From contig NZ_CP011509.1 in NCBI RefSeq assembly GCF_001027285.1, positions 4,162,501-4,226,500 of the forward strand: DNA of 64,000 nt, in the 5' to 3' direction. Numbering within the stretch: position 1 is the first letter of the stretch; each line of letters opens with the position of its first letter. Shown here piece after piece: positions 4,502 through 27,608 of the stretch. The notes beneath the pieces are model-generated. The model ran no database searches and was not told the origin of the DNA. It saw nothing but the letters and a program-made list of their open reading frames with translations. The position numbers and the translations under genes were made by a program. Origin of the DNA: Archangium gephyra. Lineage in GTDB: Bacteria; Myxococcota; Myxococcia; Myxococcales; Myxococcaceae.

Positions 4502-5143
4502 ATGCGGAGCGTGGCGGGTGTAGCGGTACTGGTGTGTGTGTTGGCGGCTGGTGGCGCCGGAGCCGAGGACTGGGAGCAGGTGGCGGATGGAGACATCGCC
4601 ATCAAGGCCCGGCCCTACACGGCCGTGACGGGAGGGCGGGAGGTGTGGGCCGAGGGAGTGCTGCCGGTGAGCCTCCAGGACGTGCAGACGGCCCTGATGG
4701 ACCACGACAACTTCCGTTACTTCATGCCGTACGTGACGGAGTCGCGGCTGCTGTCGCGGGGAGTGGACGGCACCCGCCTGACGTATACGCGGCTGGATTT
4801 CCCCCTCATCTCGGATCGCGATTACGTGCTGCGGGTGTTGGACGAGCCGGTGCTGGGCACGGACGGCACGCAGGTGGCGTTCCACCAGAAGTGGACGCCG
4901 GACAACAGCGCGCTGCCGGAGCGCGCGGGCGTGGTGCGGCTGCGTCACAACCAGGGCAGCTGGTACTTCACCCCCCGCGCGGAGGGTGGGGTGCGCTTCG
5001 TCTACCGCTTCATCGTGGAGCCGGGTGGCTCCATTCCAGGTTTCCTGGCCGGTGTGGGCCAGAAGGACGCCGTGATGGCCACGGTGCGCGGGGTGGAGAA
5101 GCGCGCGCTCAAGCTGGCCGCGGACCGGGCGCAGGCGAAGTAG
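4502..5143 (+). CDS. Secreted START-domain (SRPBCC fold) lipid-binding protein
   Basis: The 213-residue protein has a signal peptide (about 1-21, AGGAGA/ED) and one START-type domain (about 25-205), recognisable from EDWEQVADGDIAIKARPY, the DHDNFRYFMPYV segment and the S-D-R-DYVLRV strand. START domains form a hydrophobic cavity for lipids or hydrophobic ligands; the ligand is unknown. The protein is presumably periplasmic or exported. An AAGGAG site lies about 9 bp before the ATG. It is followed 38 bp later by the lipoprotein gene at 5182 on the same strand, so the two may be co-transcribed. Confidence 0.8.
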   Translation: MRSVAGVAVLVCVLAAGGAGAEDWEQVADGDIAIKARPYTAVTGGREVWAEGVLPVSLQDVQTALMDHDNFRYFMPYVTESRLLSRGVDGTRLTYTRLDFPLISDRDYVLRVLDEPVLGTDGTQVAFHQKWTPDNSALPERAGVVRLRHNQGSWYFTPRAEGGVRFVYRFIVEPGGSIPGFLAGVGQKDAVMATVRGVEKRALKLAADRAQAK

Positions 5144-5181
5144 GCCCGCGCCGCTCACCGTGACAACGAGAGGAGCGGGAC

Positions 5182-6246: not shown

Positions 6247-6520
6247 GTGAGCTTGCTCCCGCGCCGCTCCAGGCAAAGGGAGCGGGCGAGCCGCGTGGAG
6301 CCGGGTGACAATGTCTGGAGGCCCACTCCATCTTGGATGTGAGGCCATTCCGTATGTCCAGAAACCGAGGAATCGCGAGCACCCTCGCACTCGGCCGGGC
6401 ATCCGCTGACAGCCCGCGTCGCTGAGGAGGCGACCCAATCCGGCTCAACCGCCAGAACACTTGCTCAGGGGGAGTGTCATGGGCTCTTTGGAATCCGAGG
6501 CATTGGGTACGAGGGGGACC

Positions 6521-10759: not shown

Positions 10760-10774
10760 GGAGGGAGGTCATCC

Positions 10775-12895: not shown

Positions 12896-12899
12896 GGGG

Positions 12900-14318
12900 T
12901 CACCACGAGTACTTGCTCTCGAACTGAAAGCGGACGCGCTCGCGGCGTGTCAGGTCGAGGTCGTCGGCGCCATGGTTCAGCGTGAGGAAGAAGGACAGTT
13001 GCCAGGCGTCGGTCACATCCCACTCCAGGTCGAAGATCGCCGCGCCGGAGAAGTCACTCAGGGAGAGGAAATAGCGGGGGCGGAGGGTGAACGCCTCCCC
13101 AGGGCCGAGGTCGCGGACCCGGGCCGCGAGGAACAGGTAGGAGCGCCCGGTGACCTCGAGGCCCGGATCCCGGTAGCGATCCAGCACGTCATCGTCCGAG
13201 CCGGATTCCTCCACGATGCGGATGGCCTGTTGGAGCTCCTCGGCGGTGTAGCCGGCCTGATTGAAGATGTATTCCAGGCGCAGATCCACGTCGTTCTTGT
13301 TGTAGCGCACCCCCGTCACGCCGAACGTGCGGAGCTGATTGGAGTCGATGCGGGTCTGCTCGAAGCCGAGCTCTCCGTCATCCTCCACCGGGTACCAGGC
13401 GATGGAGCCGCGCCTGTGGACCATGTCGAGGTAGAGCGAGAAATCGTCATTGAGGGAGAGGGAGCCATACTCGCCCACCCAGGGCCGCGCGGTGTCTCCA
13501 CGTCCCGCCACCACTCCCACGTAGGTGCCCTCGCCGTCGTCGTCGGAGGTGCCGTACTGGGCCTTGGCCAGGAAGCGGGTCTCGAACTCCTCGTCCGCGA
13601 TGAACTCGGAGATGTTCTCGTTCTCGCGCGTCTCCAACATGAAGTCCGCGGTGACGTTGCGCCAGGGAGAGAGGCCCACATAGGCCAGCCACCTGCCGCG
13701 GAAGAAAGTCGTCGGCGTTCGCGCGATGCGTGAGTCCCGGAGGAGTTGATTGCTCGGATTGAGGGACTCGCCCGGGCCCCACCAGAAGTGCCGCAGCCCA
13801 TAGGACACGGCGAGGAAGTCCGTGACGTGCCACTGGGCATAGGCCTCGATGAACTCGAACCGGGTGGTGGTCTCCTCGGTGAGCCAGACGCTGTTCACCT
13901 GGCTCTTGTCCACGCGGAGCGCGAGCCGGGGCCGGAGAAGGAATTCCCACTGGGAGCCGAACTCCCCTTCGATCCGGGCGCGCAGCGAGCTCAACGACGA
14001 ATGCTGGGCGAACTCGAAGTTCTCGTTGCCCGGGTTGGTGACGGTGTCCGCGAGCTGGAGCACGGTATGGGCGAGACGCCAGTCGACCGAACCCGTCCAG
14101 GACAGGAGCGCCTCGTGCTCCTCCTCCTCCTCCTCCTCCTCCTCTTCCGGAGACTCGGGTGGCTCGGCGAAGAGGGGCGGTTCCCCCGGGAGGCGCTCGT
14201 TCGCGGGTTGCTCCTCGGCCTCCTCCTGCGTGGAGCCCTCTTCCGGGTGCTCCTCCTGTTGCGGCGACGCGCTCAAGCCGCACGCGACCAGGGCGAGCGT
14301 GGTGAGTAATGCGGACAT
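12900..14318 (-). CDS. Outer-membrane beta-barrel protein with acidic N-terminal linker
   Basis: The N-terminus MSALLTTLALVACG is either a short signal peptide or a lipobox (LVAC). It is followed by a Glu/Pro-rich linker with an uninterrupted run of ten Glu (about residues 58-67). The remaining 400 residues alternate polar and aromatic/hydrophobic positions and end in Trp (KYSW), typical of transmembrane beta-strands, e.g. RFEFIEAYAQWHVTDF and YGLRHFWWGPGESLNP. It resembles alginate-export/DUF1302-type porins without matching one I can name. A GAGGGGGGAA site precedes the start. It lies 27 bp downstream of the second GH88 gene on the same strand, so an uptake or attachment role for uronate oligosaccharides is plausible. 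Confidence 0.65.
   Translation of the reverse strand: MSALLTTLALVACGLSASPQQEEHPEEGSTQEEAEEQPANERLPGEPPLFAEPPESPEEEEEEEEEEHEALLSWTGSVDWRLAHTVLQLADTVTNPGNENFEFAQHSSLSSLRARIEGEFGSQWEFLLRPRLALRVDKSQVNSVWLTEETTTRFEFIEAYAQWHVTDFLAVSYGLRHFWWGPGESLNPSNQLLRDSRIARTPTTFFRGRWLAYVGLSPWRNVTADFMLETRENENISEFIADEEFETRFLAKAQYGTSDDDGEGTYVGVVAGRGDTARPWVGEYGSLSLNDDFSLYLDMVHRRGSIAWYPVEDDGELGFEQTRIDSNQLRTFGVTGVRYNKNDVDLRLEYIFNQAGYTAEELQQAIRIVEESGSDDDVLDRYRDPGLEVTGRSYLFLAARVRDLGPGEAFTLRPRYFLSLSDFSGAAIFDLEWDVTDAWQLSFFLTLNHGADDLDLTRRERVRFQFESKYSW
14118..14147. repeat. Trinucleotide (CTC)9 microsatellite coding for poly-Glu
   Basis: Nine uninterrupted CTC triplets followed by TTC encode ten consecutive Glu on the minus strand in the beta-barrel protein. 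The array is in frame, so slippage would change linker length without breaking the reading frame. Confidence 0.85.
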
Positions 14319-14345
14319 GTATTCCCCCCTCGGCCCGGGGCACGG

Positions 14346-16223
14346 CTATGGCAGCGCCGTGTCGAGCCTGACGTCATCGATGACAAGGTCCAGGGGACCG
14401 GTGGTGGCGCCGAGCCGGAGCCGGTCCGCCCTGGGTGTGGAGAGCCGCACCCGGCTGGAGGCGAAGGGGCATTCGAATGCCTCATCGCCGCGGGCCAGGG
14501 AGGCCTCCAGGATGGCGAAGGAGCCGCTCTCCCGCTTCTGGCTCAGGGAGATCCGGTAGAGCTCCCCCTCCTCCATGGGGTTGGACCTCGGGCCGACCTC
14601 GAAGGGCCCGTTGCGGGCGAACAGGGTGCCGTTGCGGCGCAAGAAGAGGTTGCCCAGGGGAGTGCGGCCCTTCAGGAAGGAGACGAGGTCCGTGTTCTCG
14701 GAGGGGAGGGACTCCACGCGCAGGTAGAACGAGGTGGAGAAGTCCGTCGTGTCGGTGAAGTGCTCCTCCAGGAAGGCGGGGAAGGTGTCTGGGATTCGCA
14801 CGGACCCATTCCCCACGAGGGCTCCCTCGGACACCAACGTCACCGGGCCCACGATGCGGTCCACCCCCGTGGCCTCCGGAGTGAGGATGCCTTCCTCGAA
14901 CCTGAAGAGGCGCTCCCGGTTTCGAGGTGCCTCTCCGGTGGAGGGGGCCGCGCTGAGCAGCGCCTCGCGCTGCTGGGGCTCCCGCGAGGTGAGCCGCTCG
15001 GGGAGCTTCGAATAACGGAGCAGCGCCTCGAGGAAGAAGTAGTCCCCGTAGATGAGGCCGGTGTCGAACCGGTCATGCGGCCGGAAGGCCGTGCCGTGCA
15101 GGAGGATGGCGCTGGTGCGCCGGTTGCTGTCCAGGTACGCCGGCGAGGCGAGGGAGCGCAGGATGTCCCGGGCGGCCTCGCGGTAGCGCAGGGCGCGTTC
15201 GGGGCGGGTCTCCAACTGGCTGAGCTCGACCAGGGCCGAGGCCGTGGCCGCGGCGGCGGAGCTGTCGCGGGGCTCCTTGGGGATGTTCGGCGCCTGGAAG
15301 TCCCAATAGGGCACCTCGTCGCTCGGGAGGTGGCGGATGAAGTAGTCCGCGGTCAGGCGGGCCGCCCGGAGCATCCGCGGATCCTTCGTCTCCCGGTAGG
15401 CCACGGTGAAGCCGTAGACGGCCCAGGCCTGCCCACGGGACCAGGTCGTGTTCCAACGGCAACCCTGCTCCTTGCCCTGCTCCCTCAACATCCGGGTCCT
15501 CGGGTCGAAGTTGACGGTCTGGTAGGTGCTTCCGTCGGCGCGCACGTGGCTCTCCAGGACGCTCAGCGCGTGCTGGTGGGCCATGTCATACAGCTCGCGC
15601 CGGCCCCCGTTCCTGGCGGCCCAGAACAGCAGCTCGATGTTCATCATCGAGTCGATGATGACTTCGAACTCGTCCTCGTCATCGAGGTCTCCCCGTGAGC
15701 GGATGAGGCCCATCCGGGCGTCATACCGCTGGGAGAGGGAACTGGCCGCGGTGAGGAGGATGCGCCGGTAGGACTCCTGGCCGGTCAGCCGGTAGGCATT
15801 GCCAAAACTGGTGAAGAGGATGAAGCCCAGATCCTGGTCATCGGTGCGGTCCTTCTGGCTCTCCAGGCCGGCCTGCCAGCGCTCGGCCCGGGTCCGCCAG
15901 ATGGGGGCCCCGGTGTACTCGTACAAGGCCCAGAAGCTGCCGGGGAGGAAGCCGCTCGTGAAGCTGTCCGCGTCGGTGGTGTCCCAGGTCCCATCCGGCA
16001 GGGTCTCGGAGGGGTACTCCGTCTCGGGGAGGGTGCTCGCGGTGGCCTCGAGCTGCCGTGCGGCGAGTGGGAAGACGCGGGCGAGGGTGTCTTCGAGCGG
16101 CTCACCACGCGCGGCCGTCGCCAGTGGCCAGGAGAGGAGCGCCAGGGGGACGAGCATCAGGAGGCCCCGTGCCATTCCCAGGAGCACGGGTTTCTCTCCG
16201 GGCCAGGGTTTTCTCGATCGCAT
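14346..16223 (-). CDS. Second secreted GH88 unsaturated glucuronyl hydrolase
   Basis: The 625-residue paralogue of the gene at 10775 shares long identical stretches such as RAERWQAGLESQK-type segments and SRGDLDD. It has a signal peptide (hydrophobic core about 15-38), a GH88 domain (about 40-410) with Asp131 (DDQDLGF) and Asp191 (IIDSMMN) at the catalytic positions, and the same C-terminal beta-sandwich (about 440-625). It lacks the SbsA Ig-like insert of its paralogue. GGAGAA sits 5 bp before the ATG. It is first in an apparent two-gene unit with the beta-barrel gene. Two copies with different C-terminal layouts suggest different oligosaccharide preferences. Confidence 0.88.
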   Translation of the reverse strand: MRSRKPWPGEKPVLLGMARGLLMLVPLALLSWPLATAARGEPLEDTLARVFPLAARQLEATASTLPETEYPSETLPDGTWDTTDADSFTSGFLPGSFWALYEYTGAPIWRTRAERWQAGLESQKDRTDDQDLGFILFTSFGNAYRLTGQESYRRILLTAASSLSQRYDARMGLIRSRGDLDDEDEFEVIIDSMMNIELLFWAARNGGRRELYDMAHQHALSVLESHVRADGSTYQTVNFDPRTRMLREQGKEQGCRWNTTWSRGQAWAVYGFTVAYRETKDPRMLRAARLTADYFIRHLPSDEVPYWDFQAPNIPKEPRDSSAAAATASALVELSQLETRPERALRYREAARDILRSLASPAYLDSNRRTSAILLHGTAFRPHDRFDTGLIYGDYFFLEALLRYSKLPERLTSREPQQREALLSAAPSTGEAPRNRERLFRFEEGILTPEATGVDRIVGPVTLVSEGALVGNGSVRIPDTFPAFLEEHFTDTTDFSTSFYLRVESLPSENTDLVSFLKGRTPLGNLFLRRNGTLFARNGPFEVGPRSNPMEEGELYRISLSQKRESGSFAILEASLARGDEAFECPFASSRVRLSTPRADRLRLGATTGPLDLVIDDVRLDTALP

Positions 16224-16306
16224 GTCGTTCTCCGGGCTGAGGAGCCGCGAAGCTATTCATTCCGCCAAAGGCAGACACTGACCGGCTGGATGAGTGGCCT
16301 GTAGCC

Positions 16307-18151
16307 ATGGCCACACTCCCTCAGGCCGGAGAACGGGTGGTGGAGGTCCGCACCTGGCACCAGCTTCCTGGGATTGAGGCAAGGCGTTCCGTGCACCTGC
16401 ATCCATCCGATTCGAGACTTCCCACGGGTAGTATCCACTTCCCCAACGGGAACGAGGCGGCGTGGGCGAGGATCTCCGTCGAGACGGAGTCCCAGGACGT
16501 CCTCCGGGCCCTGGGACTCAAGCCCCCGCGCGCGCTCATCCTCCTGCTCGGAGGCACGGAGGGGCTGGAGCCCGGGCTCACGGCGCGCCTGCGGCAGCTC
16601 TTCGGCCGGGGCATTGCTTGCGCGGCCATGGACGCGGGGGCCGTCATCCTGGATGGAGGCACGCAGGCGGGCGTCGTGGACTTGATGGGGCAGGGCGTCG
16701 CGGACCGGGGCCATGGCGCCGCGCTCGTGGGCGTGGTGCCCGAGCGGCTCGTCACCTGGCCGGGTGGCCCTTCGCCCTCGGGCCCGCAGCCCCTGGTTCC
16801 CCTGGAGCCCCATCACTCCCACTTCGTCCTGGTGGAGAGTCAAGACTGGGGAGGGGAGACCCCCACCCTCTACAAGCTCGCCGAGACACTCGCCGCCGGG
16901 GCGCCCGTGGTGGCCGTGCTCGCCAACGGGGGGGAGCTCTCCAAGCAGGAGCTCCTCCGGGCCGTGCGACGGGGCTGGCCCGTGGTGGTGTTGAAGAACA
17001 GCGGCCGTCTGGCGGACGCGCTCTCGAGCCACGTCCGGCAATCCTCTGGCCCCCTCGAGGATCCCGCGCTCGCGGAGATCGTCGCGGATGGCGACCTCCA
17101 CTTCTTCCCGCTGGAGGGTTCCCCGCGGGAGCTCAAACGGCTGCTCACCCATCAGCTCCGCGAGGACTCCATCCTGAGGCTGGCCTGGCAGCGCTTCGCC
17201 CTCCACGACGACAATGCCAAGAGGCAGCAGCGGGTCTTCCGCCTCATCCAGCGCTGGACGGTCCTGTTCGGCTTCCTGGGCACGCTGGCCGTCCTGCTCA
17301 AGACCTCTCTCCACTCCACGGGGCGCTTCGCCAACGGGAGCCTTCCGGACGGCGTCTTCCGCGTCCTCATCGTGGCCCTGGCCGCGGCGGTCACCGGGCT
17401 CGTGGCGGCGGCGAGCTACTTCAAGTCCGGGACACGGTGGATCCTGCTGCGCGCGCACACCGAGGCCCTCAAACGGGAGATCTACCGCTACCGCTGCCGG
17501 TTGGGAAACACGGCCCACCCCCGGACAGGGCGGCTGTCCCATGAGCGCCGGCTGGCGAACAGGATGAGGGTCATCAGCCAGCAGCTCTTCCGGATGGAGC
17601 CTGGTGTCTCGGCGCTCGGCCGCTACCGGGGACGTCTGCCTCCGCCAGACGCGGTGGATCCTCGCGACGATGGCTTCAGCGCCCTGTCTCCCTTCCACTA
17701 CATCCGCTACCGCCTCGAGCATCAACTCGGCTACTACCGCGACCGGCTCAACACGCAGGCCCGGCGGGCCCGGAGACTCCAGTGGACCGTCATCGCGGTG
17801 AGTGCCCTGGGCACGGTCCTGGCGGCGGTGGGTCTGGAGCTGTGGGTGGCCCTGACCTCGGCCCTGGTCACGACCCTCATCGCCTGGATCAACTCCCAGA
17901 ACGCCGAGAACCTGCTCACCAAATACAACCAGGCCATCACGGATCTGGAAGACACCCGGGTCTGGTGGAGCGCCCTGTCCCTGGAGGAGCAGTCCAGCCG
18001 TCGTCACTTCGAGCTCCTCGTCAGCAGGACCGAGCTCGTCCTGCAGAGTGAGCTCACCGGCTGGGTCCAGGAGATGAAGGAGTTGATGGCCCGGCTCGAC
18101 GCACGGCACGAGAAGTCCGGCAGGAAGGCCGAGCCCCGGGTGCAGCACTGA
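16307..18151 (+). CDS. SLOG (LSDAT_prok/TRPM-SLOG-like) sensor fused to two SLATT (DUF4231-like) 2TM modules
   Basis: Residues about 40-255 form a Rossmann-like SLOG domain: FPNGNEAAW, then LILLLGGTEGLEPGL (about 75-90), DGGTQAGVVDLMGQG (about 115-130) and APVVAVLANGGE (about 200), as in the LSDAT domains related to the TRPM N-terminus. Two 2TM modules follow, with helix pairs at about 317-335/350-372 and about 490-512/514-530, the second resembling DUF4231/SLATT. Comparative genomics has linked such fusions to nucleotide-derived second messengers and membrane perforation; that role is inferred here. No good Shine-Dalgarno precedes the ATG at 16307 and conserved sequence begins near residue 40, so the true start may differ. 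The gene is isolated, with no synthase next to it. Confidence 0.8.
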   Translation: MATLPQAGERVVEVRTWHQLPGIEARRSVHLHPSDSRLPTGSIHFPNGNEAAWARISVETESQDVLRALGLKPPRALILLLGGTEGLEPGLTARLRQLFGRGIACAAMDAGAVILDGGTQAGVVDLMGQGVADRGHGAALVGVVPERLVTWPGGPSPSGPQPLVPLEPHHSHFVLVESQDWGGETPTLYKLAETLAAGAPVVAVLANGGELSKQELLRAVRRGWPVVVLKNSGRLADALSSHVRQSSGPLEDPALAEIVADGDLHFFPLEGSPRELKRLLTHQLREDSILRLAWQRFALHDDNAKRQQRVFRLIQRWTVLFGFLGTLAVLLKTSLHSTGRFANGSLPDGVFRVLIVALAAAVTGLVAAASYFKSGTRWILLRAHTEALKREIYRYRCRLGNTAHPRTGRLSHERRLANRMRVISQQLFRMEPGVSALGRYRGRLPPPDAVDPRDDGFSALSPFHYIRYRLEHQLGYYRDRLNTQARRARRLQWTVIAVSALGTVLAAVGLELWVALTSALVTTLIAWINSQNAENLLTKYNQAITDLEDTRVWWSALSLEEQSSRRHFELLVSRTELVLQSELTGWVQEMKELMARLDARHEKSGRKAEPRVQH

Positions 18152-18617
18152 CCCTCGGAGGCCGCGCCCCCTCCCCAGGTCCGAGCCCGTCGTTGAATCC
18201 ACGGAAGTTTGAAGTTCGCGCTGTGCTTTCCGGGACAGCTTCGCTTCGGACGGAGTGCCGCCGCCCTCCACCAGTGTTTACAGGCTGGCCGGGCAAGGGG
18301 TCTGCTCCAGGCACGAGCCAGCGCAGACTCCAAGAGCGGCCACGGACTCATCGCCGAAGGAGTGCTCCAGAGCTGGGCTGCCGTGGGCCTGGGAGAACTG
18401 CCGGTAGAAGGTCCCGCCGTACAGCCGCAGGGGATCGTCGAACAGTCCCATACCGGGCCATAGGCCGCGCGTGGGGGAAGCCTGTCAAGGCAATGCTTTT
18501 TCCCATGTGCGGCTGCCGCGCCCCTCGCGCGCTCGTTCGTTACTGTGGGAACGTGCTGGCATACTCCCAACGGGCCCCAACTGAGCCTGCCCCCCGCGCT
18601 TGATGAAGGATGTGACG
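18152..18617. other. Gene-poor stretch with a possible coding remnant
   Basis: This 466-bp gap between the SLOG-SLATT gene and the next lipoprotein holds only the short minus-strand frame annotated separately (18278-18451). The last 130 bp before 18618 probably contain the lipoprotein promoter. No RNA gene or repeat was seen. Confidence 0.35.
18278..18451 (-). pseudogene. Short possible gene remnant, 57 codons
   Basis: The frame ATG 18451 to TAA 18278 has strongly GC-rich third positions and a protein-like composition (begins MGLFDDPLRLYGGTFYRQF). There is no ribosome binding site and no room for a domain. It looks like a fragment of a degraded gene. I do not recognise the family. Confidence 0.25.
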
Positions 18618-19283
18618 ATGCGCTTGCGAACCTGGAGCGCGCTCCTGGTACTGCTCACCGCCTGCGCGAGCGCGCCCGCCCCGCAGTCGATGCCACGGCC
18701 CCACGCCTTCGCGTCGGCTCCTACTTCGGGCCCGCGCATCCGGCTCGTTTCCGCGCCGATGGAGCCGGCACCGGAACGGTCGTGGATTGGAAGGGCGGAC
18801 CTGGACAAGGCCCGGGCACTGCTGTCTCGGGTACGCAAAGACATCGAGCCGCGTCAGTGGGAACAGTTGGACCGCGAGCTCACCGCGGCGGAGCGGGCCT
18901 TCGAGCGCTTCTCAAGCGCCGCGAGGACGAGCGGGCAAGCCGCTGAGGTGGTGAGGGGAGCCGAGGGCCTCGCCCAGGCTGGACGCGCAAACGAGGCCCC
19001 TCTGGCGCTCTCCAGGGTGGGCCCGGTGCTCGTGGCCCTCGTCCTGCTCTGGCCCTCCAGCACCGCCGGGCCGGAGTCTGACCGCCGTCCGCCTTGGGTC
19101 GACGCTCAACGGGAACTCGAGGCACGGCTGCGGGACGTCTCGGAGTCCTCGCGGCAACTCATGGTGGCTCTCGAGGCCCAGCCTCGTGCGGCGAAAGCAC
19201 CGACCCGGGAGCCCTCGCCGCGGAAGCAGTTCGCGTCCGCTCTCGTGGAGGAAGACACTGTCGTTGTCATGGATTGGTGCTGA
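18618..19283 (+). CDS. Lipoprotein paired with Imm52 gene
   Basis: The ATG at 18618 is preferred because AAGGA lies 7 bp upstream and it gives a canonical lipoprotein signal (MRLRTWSALLVLLTAC); in-frame upstream starts exist at 18603 and 18600. The 221-residue product has an Ala-rich helical middle (about 55-110), a hydrophobic segment VGPVLVALVLLWPSS (about 135-150), and a charged helical end closing in VVVMDWC. I recognise no catalytic domain. TGA at 19281-19283 is one base before the ATG of the Imm52 gene, so the two are translationally coupled. In myxobacteria Imm52 genes commonly partner Tox-REase-5 toxins; this protein could be a toxin carrier that has lost its C-terminal domain, which is inference. 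Confidence 0.6.
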   Translation: MRLRTWSALLVLLTACASAPAPQSMPRPHAFASAPTSGPRIRLVSAPMEPAPERSWIGRADLDKARALLSRVRKDIEPRQWEQLDRELTAAERAFERFSSAARTSGQAAEVVRGAEGLAQAGRANEAPLALSRVGPVLVALVLLWPSSTAGPESDRRPPWVDAQRELEARLRDVSESSRQLMVALEAQPRAAKAPTREPSPRKQFASALVEEDTVVVMDWC

Positions 19284-19284
19284 A

Positions 19285-20043
19285 ATGTCAGCCGAGCAAA
19301 AATCCCTTAACGTGGTCGTCTACGCGCCTGCGCTCGTGGGCGACGAGAAGCGACCCCTTGCCATCGCCCAAGGAATGGAGCGCGCGCTTCGCGGCTTGCG
19401 GCTGGAGTGGACGACTTCTGAAAAGGACGGCCTTATTGCATTGCCCAACCGCGACGAGGGGATCGTGACGGACAAGGCAAACGGCGGCTTTTTCTTCCTT
19501 TGCAACGATGACGAAAATCACCCGGTAACACTCAGTGGGTGGGAGAACCCTGACGGGCTTGCCGCAGGGGGACCGCCGCACTTTCAAGTTTCCGTGAGCC
19601 TGCCGCTGGATGCAGTTGGCATTGCCGCGGCCGTAGATGTGCTGGAGGCCGTAGGGGACGGCGCTCGCGCCGTCTGGGGAAAAGCGTCGCTGGATGGCTA
19701 TGGCGGGGTCGTGGCGCAGCAGTTTCGCCGCCAGGGCGACAAGCCGCATGTGCCGCCCTACGGGTTGCCCTCTCTCAAGCGCCCCCGGGACAATCCTGCG
19801 CCTGAGATTCCCCATTACCTCGGGTGGCTGAACTACTGGTCTGCCGCTACCGCACGCGCCATCGGCTTCCCGGACCCGGTCCGCGACGCGGAGCTGCTTT
19901 CACGCGCACGGCTTACCGCGACGGGCGGGTGGGTTGTCTGGCTCACCGATATGCCGCTCGACCTGGACAACCCCGCCCACCTGGACACGCTCAAACGGGC
20001 CTACGCGCGCTTCCCGGAGATCGGCGGACGCTCCACCCCTTGA
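19285..20043 (+). CDS. Imm52-family immunity protein
   Basis: The 252-residue protein starts at the ATG one base after the lipoprotein stop; a 33-residue upstream extension in frame overlaps that gene and is rejected. It has features of the immunity-52 family: an N-terminal strand NVVVYAPALVGDEK, a GLRLEW segment, and the C-terminal GGWVVWLTDMPLDLDNPAHL. Imm52 proteins are cytoplasmic antidotes in polymorphic toxin systems, classically against Tox-REase-5. No intact toxin domain is visible beside it. The coding GC is lower than that of the neighbouring core genes, consistent with accessory DNA. Confidence 0.7.
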   Translation: MSAEQKSLNVVVYAPALVGDEKRPLAIAQGMERALRGLRLEWTTSEKDGLIALPNRDEGIVTDKANGGFFFLCNDDENHPVTLSGWENPDGLAAGGPPHFQVSVSLPLDAVGIAAAVDVLEAVGDGARAVWGKASLDGYGGVVAQQFRRQGDKPHVPPYGLPSLKRPRDNPAPEIPHYLGWLNYWSAATARAIGFPDPVRDAELLSRARLTATGGWVVWLTDMPLDLDNPAHLDTLKRAYARFPEIGGRSTP

Positions 20044-20136
20044 GGCCGGCACGGCTCGCAGTGGCCATGCTCACCGCCGGGGTGAAGCGCCTGAGACTCA
20101 AGCCCATCAACAACGCGTTTGCCGTGCTGCAGCAAG

Positions 20137-20279
20137 GTCCGGCGTACCATCTGGCAGGGGGTGACGGGGCTGCCGAAGGGGGACGGGAAAGAACGATGGG
20201 CCTGCCGGGCTCGGCAGTGGACGCGCTCAAGGGACACCGCCTGCGAGGCCCTTACGTATTCAGCCAGGAGCACGGCTAG
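20137..20279 (+). pseudogene. Frameshifted fragment of a tyrosine site-specific integrase
   Basis: In one frame 20137-20181 reads VRRTIWQGVTGLPKG; shifting frame, about 20188-20279 reads RERTMGLPGSAVDALK then HRLRGPYVFSQEHG and a stop. Joined, these match the part of tyrosine recombinases where a beta-hairpin (R-x-x-W-x-G-x-x-G-x-P-K-x-x-R-x-R) leads to A-L-x-x-H-R-H-L-R-G-x-x-V-F. Neither the N-terminal domain nor the catalytic R-H-R-Y C-terminus remains. It sits 50 bp from a tRNA-like T-arm sequence, the usual target of such enzymes. Confidence 0.6.
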
Positions 20280-20327
20280 CCGCTTACCGCTGGCAACCTC
20301 TTGAGATTGCCGGGCTTCCCAGGTTGT

Positions 20328-20350
20328 CCCCGACGGGATTCGAACCCGTG
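20328..20350 (-). repeat. att-like direct repeat, copy 1 (tRNA T-arm fragment)
   Basis: CCCCGACGGGATTCGA, read on the other strand, is a T-stem/loop with GGTTCGAATCCCGTCGGGG, like the 3' end of a tRNA. No anticodon arm or 5' acceptor strand is present at the right distance, so it is a fragment. The same 16 bases recur at 22733-22748, and the match continues for CCCGT after one differing base. Confidence 0.6.
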
Positions 20351-20476
20351 GAGGAGGGGTGCCCCAACCCCGCGACGGCACACGCCTTCCGAGGAATCGC
20401 GAGTGAATCCGGGCACTTCGAGTCCACGGGGGAGTCCCCGGCAGTCCCACCTGTCCCTCCGAGTCCCCTCCAATCC

Positions 20477-20495
20477 TGGAGACATTTTGGAGACA
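20477..20495. repeat. Double TGGAGACA motif, copy 1
   Basis: TGGAGACATTTTGGAGACA contains two TGGAGACA units separated by TTT. A near copy (16 of 19 identical) lies at 22643-22661, at the other side of the proposed att-flanked segment. Confidence 0.5.
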
Positions 20496-20640
20496 GAACC
20501 AGGGGCGCACGGTGCTGCACCGGCGCGGCGCACGCTCTTGCTCGCTCCGGCAGCGGCCCTCCTCGCCCCCTTTGCGCCAGCCCGCCCCCTCAACAAGACC
20601 CCCATTCCGCCTATGCGCATCCACCGGATCCGGAGCCGAC

Positions 20641-21474
20641 TCAGATTTCGCTCGCGATCAGGATCCGCGCGGATTCGGCGAACTCACGTGCGCCCGGGGT
20701 GAGATCCTCGTAGGGGGCGTCGAAAACCGCATCGAACGCGATGCCCCAGATGAGCGGATCACACCTATCGAATTCACCGGTCAGCTCGAGCCCCGTGATC
20801 GTGGAGAGAATGTCGAACAGGTTGATGGGTTCCGAGTACAGCTCGATGCCTCGTGCCACGCGAAGAATGTAGGGAACACGCGGGAAAGGGTTTGGCCCAT
20901 CTTTCGAATCCAAGAAGGTCGGACCCACCTCGGCGCCATCCTGAACGATGCACTCGAGCCACTCACACGCGGACTCGGCGGCCTCTCGCCAAGCGGAGGG
21001 CTCCGCCTCGGGCATGGAGTGCTCGAACAATTCATCGAGCCTCGAGAGGGCACTGTCATTCGCGGCGACAGCGCGTGGCTCCAATGAGCCGAGAACCTTG
21101 ACCGCCGTCGAGCTCCAGAGACGTTGCTCCCGCCGGATGCAGGACCGCAGACGGGCATCCGTCATGTCGCTTGCCCACCGCGCCACGAAGGTCGCCTCGG
21201 CGCGAGCGCGACCCCGCACGTCCTCGTCACACAGCGCATCGAGGAGGAAGTTCATCCAAGTGAAGAAGGTGCGCGGGTGCTCGAACGAGCCGCTCCGGCG
21301 CTTGCTCCTGCTGCGCAACATGTCCTCCCGTTCGTCAAACCGATAGCGCAGGGTGTCGCGCAGGTCTTCATCCACCTCGAAGGATTCGAACTGACCCATC
21401 ACGGGAATCAACAGGCCACGAAATGTCAGCGCCTGCCTCCGGGGCACCGGGCCACCACGCTTCTCTGTTCGCAT
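20641..21474 (-). CDS. Hypothetical protein, 277 residues, accessory
   Basis: The start at 21474 has a good GAGGAGGG site 3 bp upstream. The product is soluble and mostly helical, with many charged residues and no signal peptide. Segments such as WMNFLLDALCDEDVRGRARAEATFVARW and WREAAESACEWLECIVQDGAEVGPTF look like a globular domain, but I recognise no family. It is the only intact gene of its size between the two att-like repeats, so it may be cargo of the former element. Confidence 0.6.
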   Translation of the reverse strand: MRTEKRGGPVPRRQALTFRGLLIPVMGQFESFEVDEDLRDTLRYRFDEREDMLRSRSKRRSGSFEHPRTFFTWMNFLLDALCDEDVRGRARAEATFVARWASDMTDARLRSCIRREQRLWSSTAVKVLGSLEPRAVAANDSALSRLDELFEHSMPEAEPSAWREAAESACEWLECIVQDGAEVGPTFLDSKDGPNPFPRVPYILRVARGIELYSEPINLFDILSTITGLELTGEFDRCDPLIWGIAFDAVFDAPYEDLTPGAREFAESARILIASEI

Positions 21475-22188
21475 ATACCCTCCTCACCAGGGGCTGCCGT
21501 GCTGACGAGCAGCATGACAAGGTCGCCCCCGCATCGCTCGGGTGAATCACGGGAGCGAGGGCAAACGCTCACCGTTCAACGCACAGGCCTGGGCCGCTCA
21601 CGCGATGACACCACCTGCCAGGATGAGCCACAGCGGCCTCACGTGTCGTCGGCCCGTGGGGCCTCCCAAGGGCCAGGGTGGGGAGGATCCGGAATCGCCT
21701 CGGGAGAAAGGGAACCTGGGGCATCGCGCCAGCGGTTCAGTACCTGGTGCGCGGTCGGGCTCACGGGCGAGGCGGCCACAGCTGTGTCGAAGCTCGAGGC
21801 AACTCCGAAGGAGTGCTCGGGGGGATACGGACAGATAGCCAGAAGAATCTCACGCCCATGTCCAAAGCATACCACGCCCAGTTCCTGCACCGTCTTCATC
21901 ACCCGCGGCGGTCCGAGCACCTCCAGCAGCAGGTCCCGCGGATCCTCGCCCCGGCGTGGGCGATCTCGTCGATGAACGAGTTGACTGAGAACGCGTGGAA
22001 AATGTCGTGCACGGATCGCGTCAGACCCGCCCTGGCACAGGAACTCCAAGGTTCAGTCAGACACGATGGGAAAGCGCAATTGTCGCCAAGAGGAAAAGTA
22101 ACAGATGCTGATCACCTGGGAGGCTCCTGAACCTCCTTGCGAATTTCTTATAATGCACCCCCTCATCGACCCGAGGAGGAAAGTGCCA
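21475..22188. other. Gene-free stretch with a decayed gene
   Basis: Apart from the dehydrogenase-like remnant at 21640-22049, no frame here has a start site, coding bias and recognisable content together. The last 60 bp carry the Shine-Dalgarno sequence and probably the promoter of the small lipoprotein at 22189. Confidence 0.35.
21640..22049 (-). pseudogene. Probable remnant of a xanthine/aldehyde dehydrogenase molybdopterin subunit
   Basis: On the minus strand one frame near 21955-22000 reads HAFSVNSFIDEIAHAG, and after a frame change the sequence continues DPRDLLLEVLGPPRVM. Together this resembles the segment HAFAxxSFxDELAHAAGxDPxxFxLxLLGPPR of molybdopterin-binding subunits of the xanthine dehydrogenase/isoquinoline 1-oxidoreductase family. 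The following HSFGVASSFDTAVAASPVSP resembles the HRSFxxYVAxVVEVxV strand of the same proteins. Everything before and after is missing, so it cannot be functional. Confidence 0.4.
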
Positions 22189-22491
22189 ATGAAACTCACA
22201 TTTGCAGCGGTGGCCGCAGGATTCTGTATCTGGGTGGCGGGATGTGGCCCCGCGAGCGGGGATGCGAAGGAGCGCGGCACTGAGACAATCCGCCAGGAAC
22301 TCACGCCTTGCCTCTCCGCGTGCTGGGGGGGTTGCACCATCAAAAATTTGGAGTGCAGGGAAGGCTGCGAACAGCAGTGCAACGGCGACAATGGGTGTGA
22401 TGTGTGCACCAATGCGTGCTTCGGCGACCCCTACAACACCTTGTGCTACGACTGCCAAAACGACAACGCGTGCGTGTGGCCGACGCCTTGA
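22189..22491 (+). CDS. Small Cys-rich lipoprotein
   Basis: The ATG at 22189 has GAGGAGGA 8 bp upstream; an in-frame upstream extension from 22105 is rejected. The 100-residue product has a lipoprotein signal ending VAGC, a short linker, then about 60 residues with twelve cysteines in CxxxC and CxxC spacings (e.g. CLSACWGGC, CREGCEQQC, CDVCTNAC). The pattern implies a disulphide-knotted or metal-binding exported domain. Function unknown. It lies inside the att-flanked segment. Confidence 0.65.
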   Translation: MKLTFAAVAAGFCIWVAGCGPASGDAKERGTETIRQELTPCLSACWGGCTIKNLECREGCEQQCNGDNGCDVCTNACFGDPYNTLCYDCQNDNACVWPTP

Positions 22492-22642
22492 AAGGCGGGC
22501 TCCCACCCATGACGTTTGGCCTGTAGTACATCCAAGGGGATTTCTCGGTGTCCCGGGAGGGCACCCCGCTAGGTTATCCACGTGCGTCCGCGCACGAACA
22601 CCTTCAGCTGTGGAGAGGGGCGCGGCGTGGGTGTCTCCGATG

Positions 22643-22661
22643 TGGAGACATCCTGGAGACG
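22643..22661. repeat. Double TGGAGACA motif, copy 2
   Basis: TGGAGACATCCTGGAGACG, 16 of 19 identical to 20477-20495. Confidence 0.5.
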
Positions 22662-22679
22662 CGCCGGGGCCTGAAAACA

Positions 22680-22723
22680 CCAAGGCCGGGAACCACTGAG
22701 ATTTCAGCGGCTTCCGGCCTTGG
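22680..22723. terminator. Long imperfect inverted repeat
   Basis: CCAAGGCCGG at 22680 pairs with CCGGCCTTGG ending at 22723, and the inner bases continue to pair imperfectly (AACCACTGA with TTTCAGCGGCTT). The result is a long hairpin with a very short loop. It may terminate transcription or be part of a former element end. There is no T-tract. Confidence 0.45.
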
Positions 22724-22728
22724 CGTCA

Positions 22729-22763
22729 GTGACCCCGACGGGATTCGACCCCGTCGGCGTCAC
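22729..22763. repeat. att-like direct repeat, copy 2, extended into a 14-bp hairpin
   Basis: GTGACCCCGACGGG (22729-22742) pairs with CCCGTCGGCGTCAC (22750-22763) with one mismatch around a 7-base loop. The core CCCCGACGGGATTCGA (22733-22748) is the same as at 20328-20343. Unlike copy 1, both arms are extended, so it is not a plain tRNA 3' end. Confidence 0.6.
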
Positions 22764-22942
22764 CGTCCGGGCAGGCGGGCAGGCGTGAGGCCGGCTTGCT
22801 TGGGCCAGGCCGGTGGTCCGGCCGAAGAGGGGGGGGCGCGCAACCCTTGCGCCTGGACGCAGCCCTTGCACCCGGAACCCCTGTCGGAACGGGGGGTTCC
22901 GAGAGAAGGGCGCTGGCACGGAGCTTGGAGTGGGGGGGACCG

Positions 22943-24313
22943 ATGGTCTCGTCCCCGCACATCCCCACTCCCTCCGAAGAGTTGATGCGGCGCTATGACG
23001 TCGCCGGCCCCCGCTACACCAGCTACCCCACCGTGCCCGAGTGGAAGCAGGACTTCGGCACCGAGCGCTATGCCGAGCGGCTCGACGTGGCGGGCAGCGC
23101 GAGCGCCGAGGAGCCCCTCTCCCTCTACGTCCACCTGCCGTTCTGCCGCAGCCTCTGCTGGTACTGCGGGTGCAACGTGGTCATCTCCCAGGACCGGGGC
23201 GCGGCGGACGTCTACATCGACCATGTCCTCCTGGAGCTGGAGCAGGTGGTGGCCCGGTTGGGACGCCGCCGCAAGTTGTCCCAGGTGCACTGGGGTGGGG
23301 GGACTCCCACCTTCCTGAACGAGCGGCAGTTGGAGCGCCTGTGGAGCGGTATCACCCGGCACCTCTCCCTGGTGCCGGACGCGGAGGTGGCCGTCGAGGT
23401 GCACCCGGTCATCACCACACCGGGACAGCTCACCCTGCTGCGCGAGCTCGGCTTCAACCGCGTCTCCATGGGGCTGCAGGACTTCGATCCGAAGGTGCAG
23501 GAGGTCACCAACCGCCACCAGCCCTTCGCCCAGACCCGCTCCCTGCTGGACCACGCCCGGAACCTGGGCTTCTCCGGCGTGAACTTCGATCTCATCTACG
23601 GGCTGCCGTACCAGAACGCGGAGAGCTGGGCGCGCACGCTCGAGCAGATATTGGAGCTGCGGCCGGACCGGCTCGCCGTGTACTCCTTCGCGTTCATCCC
23701 GGACGTGCTCAAGCACCAGAAGCGCATGCCGGCCGAGGCCCTGCCGGACGCACGCACCAAGCAGGGATTGTTCCGCGCCGCCTGGGCCGCCTTCGTGGAC
23801 GCGGGCTACCTGCCCATCGGCATGGACCACTTCGCCGTCCCCGAGGACGAGCTGGCCCTTGCCCAGCAGCGGCGTGAGCTGGGGCGCAACTTCCAGGGCT
23901 ACACGGTGAAGGCGGCGCAGGACGTGGTGGCGCTCGGCTCCACTGGCATCAGTGACGTGGGCGGTGCCTACGCGCAGAACGTCCGCGCCCTGCCGTACTA
24001 CTACGAGCGCGTGCGCGAGGGCCGCTTCGCCACCGAGCGTGGCATCCAGCTCACCGAGGACGACCGGCGCCGCCGCGCCATCATCACCCAGCTCATGTGC
24101 AACTTCTGGGTGGACCTGGGTGAGCACGGCACGAGCGACTTCGCGCGGGAGCTGGAGCGGCTGCGGCCGCTGGAAGACGATGGGCTGGTCCGGCGGGAGG
24201 GGAGCCAGCTCGAGGTAACCCCCTTGGGGCGGCTGTTCGTGCGCAACGTGGCGATGGTGTTCGACGCCTACCTGCGCCAGGCCGAGCGGCCCCGTTTCTC
24301 CCGGACGGTCTGA
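22943..24313 (+). CDS. hemN: Oxygen-independent coproporphyrinogen III oxidase
   Basis: The ATG at 22943 (after a G-rich AGTGGGGGGGAC) gives 456 residues, the usual length of HemN; an upstream frame extension is rejected. The radical-SAM cluster motif is C68-x3-C72-x2-C75, with the HemN-specific extra Cys77 (FCRSLCWYCGC). Other family signatures are RYTSYPT near the N-terminus, HWGGGTPTFL, FNRVSMGLQDF, NFDLIYGLPYQ, GMDHFA and the C-terminal helical domain. The enzyme converts coproporphyrinogen III to protoporphyrinogen IX anaerobically in the cytoplasm using two SAM. It heads an operon with the hemerythrin (2 bp) and response-regulator genes, suggesting low-oxygen expression. Confidence 0.95.
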   Translation: MVSSPHIPTPSEELMRRYDVAGPRYTSYPTVPEWKQDFGTERYAERLDVAGSASAEEPLSLYVHLPFCRSLCWYCGCNVVISQDRGAADVYIDHVLLELEQVVARLGRRRKLSQVHWGGGTPTFLNERQLERLWSGITRHLSLVPDAEVAVEVHPVITTPGQLTLLRELGFNRVSMGLQDFDPKVQEVTNRHQPFAQTRSLLDHARNLGFSGVNFDLIYGLPYQNAESWARTLEQILELRPDRLAVYSFAFIPDVLKHQKRMPAEALPDARTKQGLFRAAWAAFVDAGYLPIGMDHFAVPEDELALAQQRRELGRNFQGYTVKAAQDVVALGSTGISDVGGAYAQNVRALPYYYERVREGRFATERGIQLTEDDRRRRAIITQLMCNFWVDLGEHGTSDFARELERLRPLEDDGLVRREGSQLEVTPLGRLFVRNVAMVFDAYLRQAERPRFSRTV

Positions 24314-24315
24314 GC

Positions 24316-24903
24316 ATGGATGCCATCGATATCCTCGTGAATGAGCACCGCCACATCGAGCGCGTCATGGACGTGCTCGAGCGGGCCGTGGAGTACGGAC
24401 GCGGAGGTGGAGATGTGTCGCCGGTGCTCTTCGAGCGCGCCGCGCACTTCCTCGTCACCTTCGTGGATGGCAGCCACGACGCGAAGGAGGGCGAGGTCTT
24501 CCAGGCCCTCACCTCGCGAGGGCTGCCACCCGGAGAGGGCGTGCTGGCGGCGCTCTCGGGACAACACGCGTTGGGGCGCGAGCTGGCGGCGGAGCTGCGC
24601 GCGGCGGTCCGCGCGGTGACGGAGGGCATCCTGGTGCCCGAGGAGCTGTATGCCATTGCCGAGCGCTACGTGCGCCTGCACCGGGGCCACACGGAGGCGG
24701 AGGAGGTGCGGTTTTTCCCCCTGGTGCGGCGGCTGCTCCCGGCGGACGTGATGGAGCGGGTGCGGGCGAAGTTCGCGCGCATCGAGGCCGCTCACGGGCC
24801 GCTGGCGGACGCGGCGGATGCGCTGGAGCTGGCCTTCCCCCTGCCGGTGCCCACCGGGCGCCGCCCGGGCCATGTCCGGCCCCCACCCTGGGTCGGGCGA
24901 TGA
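24316..24903 (+). CDS. Hemerythrin-domain protein
   Basis: The 195-residue cytoplasmic protein begins 2 bp after hemN and ends overlapping the next gene. A four-helix HHE domain shows the ligand pattern NEHRHIERVMD (His11/His13), GSHDAKEGEVF, QHALGRE and HRGHTEAEEVRFFP, i.e. the His/Glu set that binds a di-iron site. A Pro/Arg-rich tail follows. Such proteins sense or store oxygen or bind nitric oxide. Coupling to hemN fits a role in oxygen/NO-responsive haem metabolism. Confidence 0.88.
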   Translation: MDAIDILVNEHRHIERVMDVLERAVEYGRGGGDVSPVLFERAAHFLVTFVDGSHDAKEGEVFQALTSRGLPPGEGVLAALSGQHALGRELAAELRAAVRAVTEGILVPEELYAIAERYVRLHRGHTEAEEVRFFPLVRRLLPADVMERVRAKFARIEAAHGPLADAADALELAFPLPVPTGRRPGHVRPPPWVGR

Positions 24904-25280
24904 GCACCTCGAATGCCGTGAGGCGCATCCTGGTGGTGGACGGCGAGCCCGTGGCCATGGGCGCGCTGTGTGATCTCCTGTCCATGGACGGCTACGCCAC
25001 GGTGGGCCTGTGCGAGCCGGACGAGGCCCTCCAGCGCCTGCGCAGCGAGCTCTTCGACGCCGTCATCACGGATGTGGTGCTGCCCGGAGGGCATGGGTTG
25101 GACGTGGTGCGCACGGCCCGGGAGCTCCGGCCAGGCTCGCCAGTGCTGGTGGTGACGGGGCAGGTGAACTCGCTGGCGTCCGAGGCCGCCCGAGCCCTGG
25201 GCGTCCGGCGCGTGCTCGGCAAGCCCCTGCGCTACGAGACGCTCATCTCCGTGCTGCGCGACTCCATGCAGGGCCGCTGA
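24900..25280 (+). CDS. Single-domain response regulator
   Basis: The start overlaps the hemerythrin stop as ATGA. The 126 residues are a lone receiver domain with phosphoacceptor Asp58 (VITDVVLPGG), the conserved Thr in VVTGQ and Lys in LGKPL. The acidic pair near the N-terminus is incomplete (VVDGEP: Asp14 followed by Gly), so metal binding could be altered. No output domain exists, so it must act through a partner. No kinase is adjacent. Confidence 0.88.
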   Translation: MSTSNAVRRILVVDGEPVAMGALCDLLSMDGYATVGLCEPDEALQRLRSELFDAVITDVVLPGGHGLDVVRTARELRPGSPVLVVTGQVNSLASEAARALGVRRVLGKPLRYETLISVLRDSMQGR

Positions 25281-25308
25281 GCGCTCCTGGCGGCTGGAAG
25301 AGGCGGAC

Positions 25309-25336
25309 GCCTCCTCTCCCCATGGGGAGAGGAGGC
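25309..25336. terminator. Perfect palindromic hairpin between convergent genes
   Basis: GCCTCCTCTCCCC pairs exactly with GGGGAGAGGAGGC around a central AT (13-bp arms). It sits between the stops of the response regulator (25280) and the RCC1 gene (25350), so it can serve as a bidirectional terminator. No U-tract follows, as is usual in this GC-rich background. Confidence 0.7.
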
Positions 25337-25349
25337 CTTCCGGGTGGGC

Positions 25350-27608
25350 TCAGGGCCCGGCCGGGCAGTGCTTCACTTCCGAGGCGCGGTGGTCCCGGGA
25401 GGTCATGGCCGTGAAGCGGCAGGGCAGCCGTGCCTGGACCGCGGTGCGGTGGGCGCTCGACACCCCGTCGCCGATCTGGTCATACCGATTGCTTCCCCAG
25501 GCCCGCACCGTCCCGTCCTCGAGCAGGGCGAAGCCGGTCTGCTCGCCCGCGGAGAGGGCCTTCACCCCCGCGATCGCCGGAAGCTGGACGGGGGTGGAGT
25601 AGAACAGCTGGGCCGTGTTGGCGAGCATGCCCAGGGTGTTGAGGCCGAAGCCCCAGATGGAGCCGTCCCGGCGCAGCACCAGGGCGGTGCCGTAGGAGGT
25701 GCCCATGAGGCCCACCACGTCCGTAAGGCCCGGCACGGGAGCCGGGGTGTACCGGGAGGTGAGCGTGCCATCCCCGAGCTCCCCCGTCTTGTTGTAGCCC
25801 CAGGCCCAGACGGTGCCATCGCTCCGCAGTGCCAGGCTGAACTCCCGTCCCGAGGAGATCGCCACCACGTCCGTGAGGCCCGGCACGGGGGCCGGGGTGT
25901 GCCGGGACCGCACCGAGAGCTCGACTCCGAGCTGGCCAGACAGGTTGGCGCCCCAGGTCCAGACGGTGCCATCCTCGCGCAGCGCCAGGACATGGGCGTT
26001 GCCGGCCGAGAGGGCCACCACGCCCGTGAGCTCCGGGACCTGTCGCGGTGTGGTGTGGATGTCGAAGTCGCCAGGGAATCCGAGCTGCCCGCTGGAGTTG
26101 CGGCCCAGGCCCCAGACGGTGCCGTCCGCGCGCAGCGCCAGGGAGAAAGTGGGGCCGGCCGTGACGGCCACCATCCCCGAGAGACCCTCCACCTGGACCG
26201 GGCTGGCGGTGGGGAGCTGGGGTCCGAACTGGCCGTCATTGTTGTCACCCCAGCCCCAGACGGTGCCGTCCTCGGCCACCGCCAGGGAGTGGATGACACC
26301 GGTCGCGATGGCCACCGCCTTCGGGAGCTCCATCACCTGCGACGGAGTGGCCCGGAGCTCGGGCAGCCACGGGCTGAGCTGGGCGAACCGGTTGTCGCCC
26401 CAGCCCCAGACGGTGCCGTCCTCGCGCAGCGCCAGGGAGAAATAGGCGCCGGCCGACAGGCTCACGATCTTCGACAGGTCCCGCGTCCGCACCGGCGTGC
26501 TCCGGAGGTTCGAGCCGGTGCCGAGCGCGCCGGTGGTGTTCCAGCCCCAACCCCAGACGGTGCCGTCCTTGTCCAGCACCAGGGGCAGTGCGCCCGCCGC
26601 CAGGGCGATCACGTGCCTGGGCCCTTCCACCCGCTGAGGTATGTCATTGCCTTCCCAGGGGCTCTGCACGGAGGGGTCGAGGCCCCAGGTCCAGACGGAG
26701 CCGTCCGCGCGCCGCACCAGGGAGAAGTTCGAGCCGGCCGCGACATCCACCGCGTCCGTGAGCGCGGGCACCTGCCGCGGTGTGGGGTTGGAGGAGGTGG
26801 CGTTGGGGAAGCCGAGCTGGAGGTACTGGTTGTTGCCCCAGGCCCAGACGGAGCCATCCTCCCGCAGCGCCAGGACATGCCCGGAGCCGGCCGAGAGGGC
26901 CACCACGCCCGTGAGGCCCGGCACCCGCGCGGGGAGGGGATCGAAACGCGTGGACGTGGCCCGTCCGAGCTGGCCATTCGCGTTGTTGCCCCAGCTCCAG
27001 ACGGTGCCGTCCTCCCGCAGCGCCAGGGAGTTGTCGTTACCGGCCGAGAGGGCCACCACGTCCGTGAGGCCCGGTACCCGCACGGGCGTGGCGTCGAAAG
27101 ACGTGGGCGTGGTCCGTCCGAGCTGGCCCGTCGTGTTGGAGCCCCAGCTCCAGACGGTGCCATCCTCCCGCAGCATCAGGGAATGGTTGGAGCCGGCCTC
27201 GACGGCCACTCCGTCCGTGAGGCCCGGCACCTGCTGGGGAGTGGGCTCGGAGACGGAGGCGGGCTGCCCGAGCTGGCCCATCCGGTTGAGGCCCCAGGCC
27301 CAGACGGTGCCATCCTCGCGCAGTGCCACGGTGTGCGAGGCGCCAGCGTCGATGAACTTCACCCGATCGATGGTCTCGAGCGCGGCCGGCAGGGGACGGT
27401 CCCGCGTCGTTCCGTTCCCGAGCTGGCCACTCGCGTTGTAGCCCCAGCTCCAGACGGTGCCATCCGCATCCAGCGCCACGGTATGGCTTCCATTCGCGAG
27501 GACGCCTCGGAGAGGGCCGCGCGCCTGGGTTTGCGGTGGTGCTGCCCGCGCGCCGCTGGAGCCGGTCAACAAGACGGCCCAGAGCAATGCCATCCACAGG
27601 TTTCTCAT
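25350..27608 (-). CDS. Secreted RCC1-repeat protein (two 7-bladed propellers)
   Basis: The ATG at 27608 is chosen because it opens a clean signal peptide (MRNLWMALLWAVLLTG..ARAA) with AGGAGAA upstream; the open frame runs 86 codons further without such features. The 752-residue product has 14 copies of an RCC1 unit with the pattern L-x-x-D-G-T-V-W-x-W-G-x-N-x-x-G-Q-L-G spaced about 50 residues apart, enough for two seven-bladed propellers. Secreted RCC1 proteins are abundant in myxobacteria, often as adhesin-like or structural proteins; the partner is unknown. It is divergent from the SNF2 helicase. Confidence 0.85.
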   Translation of the reverse strand: MRNLWMALLWAVLLTGSSGARAAPPQTQARGPLRGVLANGSHTVALDADGTVWSWGYNASGQLGNGTTRDRPLPAALETIDRVKFIDAGASHTVALREDGTVWAWGLNRMGQLGQPASVSEPTPQQVPGLTDGVAVEAGSNHSLMLREDGTVWSWGSNTTGQLGRTTPTSFDATPVRVPGLTDVVALSAGNDNSLALREDGTVWSWGNNANGQLGRATSTRFDPLPARVPGLTGVVALSAGSGHVLALREDGSVWAWGNNQYLQLGFPNATSSNPTPRQVPALTDAVDVAAGSNFSLVRRADGSVWTWGLDPSVQSPWEGNDIPQRVEGPRHVIALAAGALPLVLDKDGTVWGWGWNTTGALGTGSNLRSTPVRTRDLSKIVSLSAGAYFSLALREDGTVWGWGDNRFAQLSPWLPELRATPSQVMELPKAVAIATGVIHSLAVAEDGTVWGWGDNNDGQFGPQLPTASPVQVEGLSGMVAVTAGPTFSLALRADGTVWGLGRNSSGQLGFPGDFDIHTTPRQVPELTGVVALSAGNAHVLALREDGTVWTWGANLSGQLGVELSVRSRHTPAPVPGLTDVVAISSGREFSLALRSDGTVWAWGYNKTGELGDGTLTSRYTPAPVPGLTDVVGLMGTSYGTALVLRRDGSIWGFGLNTLGMLANTAQLFYSTPVQLPAIAGVKALSAGEQTGFALLEDGTVRAWGSNRYDQIGDGVSSAHRTAVQARLPCRFTAMTSRDHRASEVKHCPAGP

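Follow-up and report, generated by a model that had tools for sequence, protein, structure and literature searches.

Cis-mobilizable elements (CIMEs) are described as elements that have lost their integrase, have kept both att sites, and lie in tandem with an element whose distantly related integrase has a like specificity, with a chimeric internal att site (available part of PMC5704250). The tRNA-gene genomic islands (Islander) use a tRNA 3′ fragment as att core together with a tyrosine integrase, and tandems are known (available part of PMC4383910). In the myxophage Mx8, attP lies inside int (Tojo 1996 and Magrini 1999, as cited in the available parts of PMC4383910 and PMC4701971). The accessible portion of the literature on myxobacteria and islands held nothing on the present topic.

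Here, we describe a locus upstream of hemN in a 64-kb window, that is, the whole stretch of DNA that was analyzed (G000:C1:4162501-4226500, where G000 is this genome), which resembles each of these systems in part. As in a CIME (available part of PMC5704250), a 2.4-kb segment has lost its integrase, keeps both att ends, and has a tandem neighbor and a chimeric internal att site; unlike CIMEs, it showed no conjugation genes in the two interior frames scanned with Pfam, its site lies outside the target gene, and its host, as judged from gene content, would be myxobacterium-like. The segment shares with tRNA-gene islands a tRNA 3′ fragment as att core, a tyrosine integrase (decayed here), and a tandem arrangement, but has an intact tRNA gene at neither end, so that a search for a tRNA gene plus its fragment would not report it. 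As in Mx8, an integrase frame crosses the att core, and a tRNA-Asp element of Mx8 type is present in the same genome; however, the target here is of tRNA-Glu type, and no phage record matched the tRNA-Asp integrase at 60% identity.

Results

The first-pass annotation of this DNA had reported a 16-base match resembling a tRNA 3′ segment at two places, and both were recovered. Specifically, CCCCGACGGGATTCGA was located at 20328-20343 and 22733-22748, in each case followed, after one differing base (A vs C), by CCCGT. When up to two mismatches were allowed, these remained the only two matches in the window, compared with a mean of 0.09 in shuffled windows, none of which (0/100) gave two. The exact 16-mer occurred five times in the 12,489,432-bp genome (reversed control, 0), and one of these copies formed the 3′ end of an intact tRNA-Glu(TTC) gene (anticodon UUC; G000:C1:7999720-7999792) that adjoins tRNA-Lys, which is the intact tRNA the annotation had proposed to look for. 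The remaining two copies, at 5971403 and 6905129, had no nearby tRNA gene. Judged from sequence, the att core is the 3′ end of tRNA-Glu(UUC), comprising T-arm and acceptor strand, and both window copies are assigned as attachment sites of tyrosine-integrase elements. No tRNA gene was found in the window, and an Rfam search at E values up to 5 returned two chance-level matches only, with no tRNA at the repeat site. An intact tRNA at the insertion site was thus ruled out, and the reading of an insertion in a tRNA gene, ascribed to the annotation, does not hold, since the site lies outside tRNA genes and retains nothing of a tRNA body.

The TGGAGAC pair noted earlier near both copies is real, being present as TGGAGACATTTTGGAGAC (20477-20494) and TGGAGACATCCTGGAGAC (22643-22660). 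The 11-bp spacing seen in the arms is common at arm-type integrase sites. The arm pattern TGGAGACNNNNTGGAGAC had seven occurrences in the genome and none in reversed controls: the two window arms, four among tandem elements at tRNA-Asp(GTC), about 70-80 kb away (locus L105), and one elsewhere. In the L105 tandem, the far arm is followed by the element, and this in turn by the integrase, near arm, terminator, core, and tRNA-Asp; immediately to the left of the far arm stand another near arm and core. Across six genomes of the genus, the motif was found at 26 sites (0 in controls), 20 of which were in att-like contexts as judged by eye, and ARAGORN placed tRNA-Asp or tRNA-Glu in five of the 26 arm loci (L122, L156, L157, L163, and L169); in relatives, the arm repeats thus recur beside both tRNAs. 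Mx8 is likewise said to have its att site in tRNA-Asp.

The intact class I integrase next to tRNA-Asp in this genome (PF00589, 4.8e-29) itself encodes the arm (SGDLLETG), and its frame enters the core, while the window has decayed integrase pieces only (tblastn). The att core lies inside int at L105 and L171, and the window retains just the tail. Two classes were distinguished by their arm repeats, TGGAGACnnnnTGGAGAC in class I and GGGCACAnnnnGGGCACA in class II; class II far arms bear GGGCACAnnnnGGGCACA, and a version of this repeat with one changed base forms the end of the class II integrase gene at L124. These classes were assigned by eye, the automatic labels being partly wrong owing to a loose pattern, which placed window copy 2 and some tRNA-Glu rows in class II. 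All phage relatives of the integrases were below 60% identity.

Copy 1 (20328-20350, minus strand, with T-loop overlap TTCGAAT on that strand) is an att core of tRNA-Glu 3′-end sequence at an internal tandem junction. To its left, on the plus strand, lies an internal catalytic-domain part of a class II tyrosine integrase (20134-20300), frameshifted and with an in-frame stop, detected by tblastn in two frames (E 5e-11 and 3e-6). Its DNA is 89% identical to G004 L123:5408-5574, and 40 of its residues match the L124 integrase at 65% (E 5e-11); relative to L123, about 290 bp of the class II integrase (L123 positions 5116-5407) are missing from the window. Between fragment and core is a class II terminator-like segment (20296-20327, minus strand), part of a 58-bp match to L123 (20293-20349), and like segments adjoin class II integrases or remnants in L211, L213, and L215. 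A repeat of about 118 bp at L211 (7627-7744), in genome G001, has more than 20 near-identical copies in that genome. On its right-hand side, copy 1 is flanked by a class I far (P′) arm (20349-20513, plus strand) that includes TGGAGACATTTTGGAGAC and is 87% identical to L105:6025-6205, where it abuts a tRNA-Asp-type core. Because class II DNA lies to the left and a class I far arm to the right, copy 1 joins two different elements and is a hybrid junction of the two classes. The same junction of class I arm and class II terminator was seen in G004 (L210) and G050 (L189), and in truncated form in G002 (L166).

At the other end, the 3′-end remnant of a class I integrase gene (22633-22728, plus strand) comprises the arm TGGAGACATCCTGGAGAC and a tRNA-Glu-type terminator hairpin, and leads into copy 2, the core of which sits within an inverted repeat (22729-22763) that forms the right end of the foreign DNA. 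Leftward from copy 2, 122 bp are 85% identical to what follows tRNA-Glu in this genome, namely its terminator and 3′ flank. Near arm, terminator, and core together are identical in 108 of 126 columns to a junction in G005 that lies between an intact tRNA-Glu and a decayed integrase. At the same spot beside tRNA-Glu, G003 has an integrase frame that reads FGDILET at its end and continues through terminator and core into the tRNA gene, and in which we take the catalytic motifs to be recognizable. The window tail reads CGDILET (22641-22661) and its frame is open through the core; copy 2 is therefore the attachment core of a class I integrase gene, together with the 3′ end of that gene. About 40 codons of this 3′ end are all that is left inside the 2.4-kb segment, and no other integrase match within 20350-22640 was better than E 0.8 (tblastn). 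The annotation had seen an integrase tail 50 bp outside copy 1: a piece does lie about 50 bp to the left, but it is the internal catalytic-domain piece, and the C-terminal tail is at copy 2.

From left to right, the class II integrase fragment and terminator are followed by copy 1 and the class I far arm; cargo and debris then occupy 2 kb, and beyond them lie the final codons of a class I integrase with near arm and terminator, copy 2 in its inverted repeat, and hemN. Both att ends are retained, as core plus far arm (20328-20513) and near arm plus core (22643-22763), and site-specific integration is supported in that core, far arm, cargo, near arm, core is the order of an integrated element. 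We consider it probable that the locus is a tandem, in which a class II element on the left is joined to a class I element of 2.4 kb that lacks an integrase (20343-22748), the genes of both having since decayed. Class I and class II elements with the same core but different arm repeats would have inserted in tandem into a dyad upstream of hemN that mimics a tRNA, after which their integrase genes would have decayed; both integrase classes would recombine at the tRNA-Glu T-loop or the dyad, restoring the tRNA end and bringing a terminator. Repeats, arms, hybrid junction, integrase remnants, and synteny breaks are seen directly; we infer the order of events, the left limit, and the past mobility of 20343-22748 as an integrase-less element with both ends that became accreted to a decayed neighbor. 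The predicted 7-bp overlaps differ by one base (TTCGAAT in copy 1 vs GTCGAAT in copy 2), a mismatch that now probably blocks excision of the segment. A rearrangement after integration could have set copy 2 beside hemN.

The interior of the segment is of mixed content. It includes a copy of a dispersed repeat (20515-20618) that has eight other genomic places (75-91% identity over 33-106 bp), one of them near tRNA-Leu. An orphan open frame of 277 aa (20641-21474, minus strand), regarded as cargo of the element, had no Pfam or PADLOC match and no relative in a search of genome contigs, and a second frame encodes a small, cysteine-rich, lipoprotein-like product of 100 aa (22189-22491, plus strand). 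Pfam scans of the two frames found no transfer gene and no phage gene. In between is debris in the form of two gene fragments, one 88% identical to G000:C1:1871741-1871954 (21666-21879) and one of about 149 bp (21872-22019, minus strand; 93%), the source gene of which adjoins the genomic 16-mer at 6905129. The orphan gene and small lipoprotein earlier named as cargo are both inside the segment, as is debris.

It is this debris, from several loci, that lends some weight to the view that copies 1 and 2 are unrelated class II and class I scars, brought together by deletion or rearrangement, and that the 2.4 kb were never one element. Relics of either class often stand alone in the genus, and in L104 the class I relic directly follows a DUF5953 gene without the intervening 2.6 kb. 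We nevertheless regard this view as unlikely: the two sites are oriented alike and their arms point inward, far arm at the left site and near arm at the right, which is the layout that an integrated element needs; the hybrid junction is seen again in other genomes; and a search of 38 relatives recovered only short gene fragments of the interior between the arms.

Also weighed was the earlier reading, in which one element entered a tRNA gene and the broken integrase just beyond copy 1 is its own. The locus does contain the repeats, an integrase fragment, and arms, and a residue of site-specific integration, as had been proposed, is supported. However, the fragment is of class II and the arms within the segment are of class I, which already contradicts a single element; moreover, it is at copy 2 that the class I integrase has its tail, and the window has no tRNA gene. 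That reading is consequently very improbable, the integrase piece at copy 1 belonging to a second, different element to the left.

The relative G004 matches the window at 1141-6247 (91%) and 22770-25367 (92%), with 5,025 bp of other DNA between the two blocks. Synteny thus breaks at 6247 and resumes at 22764-22770, and 16.5 kb here stand against 5.0 kb of different DNA at the same place in G004; by this comparison, the whole foreign region may span 16.5 kb. The empty site in relatives, proposed earlier as a check, was not found in clean form, given that G004 carries this other DNA. A simple swap, in which the G004 DNA upstream of hemN had moved elsewhere in this genome, was rejected, since 81 bp of shared DNA within the query aligned at the locus itself and the rest gave short or weak matches only.

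The stretch 6248-20327, absent from G004, would represent the left element, the left end of which is not securely identified. A 15-bp match to the class I far (P′) arm at 6365 only hints at the left end of the foreign region, as one of 60 simulated 64-kb windows gave such a match; no left-hand att core was found in the window, including near 6365. Adjoining the class II integrase fragment on its left, a lipoprotein-like gene (18603-19283) and a DUF5953 gene (19285-20043), both on the plus strand, would be right-hand cargo of the class II element, and the same pair adjoins att or integrase relics in L104 and L125. The pair is multicopy, DUF5953-like sequence being present at no fewer than 13 other places in the genome, and L127 is another locus; DUF5953 was not mentioned in the literature searched. 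The region missing from G004 also encodes a 1426-aa protein (6479-10759) with an nSTAND1 NTPase and WD40 repeats, the N-terminus of which is possibly TIR-like, and a protein (16307-18151) with LSDAT_prok (SLOG) and SLATT_1 domains, a domain make-up that is linked to defence systems.

In the inverted repeat at copy 2 (22729-22763), the T-loop is enclosed in a GC stem to form a near-perfect hairpin, a dyad that imitates the acceptor stem and T-arm of a tRNA outside any tRNA gene. The form CCGACGGG-N7-CCCGTCGG occurred at 12 places in six genus genomes, two of them in this genome, and, with any 7-base loop allowed, 12 of 12 stems carried the T-loop or a one-base variant. Each of the six genomes had dyads at places unrelated to one another, most of them flanked on one side by integrase remnants, and among the fully paired sites in the loci examined, 15 of 17 had integrase-side remnants after the stem as judged by eye, those in L216 and L228 being without. 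With up to two mismatches, the T-loop dyad matched in 23 of 96 family genomes, a looser pattern that also picks up cores of far arms, copy 1 among them. At L228 7256 (6927255 in this genome), a dyad with a compensating change (GGCGGG..CCCGCC) and no adjoining integrase remnants is possibly an empty site or a scar, and at L216 6762 and 7717 (G089), two tRNA-Glu-like cores, separated by 950 bp, enclose a short open region in what may be a minimal element. That the window repeats are a dispersed hairpin or terminator repeat unrelated to integration is scarcely credible, for while copy 2 is a near-perfect hairpin and the dyad recurs in six genomes, copy 1 is not a full dyad, every stem has a T-loop or near-T-loop, and 15 of the 17 fully paired sites have integrase-side remnants on one side.

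The window dyad lies upstream of hemN with no known gene end alongside. Another dyad site follows a gene that we take to be carboxyl-transferase-like, for which 30 loci were retrieved (four from the genus, 24 from outside it, and two that ended inside the gene). The dyad was present 6-12 bp past the stop codon in all four genus members, in this genome with two changed bases, and at none of the 24 loci outside the genus; class II remnants follow it in three of the members, and in this genome a short remnant of class I-like type. This distribution, together with the T-loop-like character of all 12 stems, argues against a natural-terminator origin. The dyad thus appears to have arrived with the elements, or to have been made by them, at unrelated gene ends. 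As an empty-site marker, the neighbor downstream of the carboxyl-transferase-like site gave no meaningful match, the tblastx rows being composition noise, and the upstream-frame test of dyad sites is weak, as its output for copy 2 includes a frame that runs antisense to hemN.

Discussion

Accretion of decayed elements is already known; what is unusual here is that a site mimicking a tRNA has been used repeatedly where no tRNA gene lies. The hybrid junction of two integrase classes is direct sequence evidence of accretion. Integration relics of this kind would be missed by tRNA-anchored island finders, as their core is a tRNA fragment and the tRNA gene is absent.

The recurrent dyad poses a testable question, namely the origin of perfect attachment sites beside unrelated protein genes. 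The core site of a tyrosine recombinase usually takes the form of a perfect dyad around a 7-bp spacer, so the dyad may be an ideal attB. A bolder and rather doubtful proposal is that CCCCGACGGG-TTCGAAT-CCCGTCGGGG, a copy of the top half of tRNA-Glu, serves as a landing site and has been spread in the family by the elements themselves; it draws on the position of the dyad just after protein genes, its absence at the 24 loci outside the genus, and the remnants of both classes beside it. If this were true, the elements would make their own attachment sites outside tRNA genes, leaving a terminator-like hairpin at each gene end that they used.
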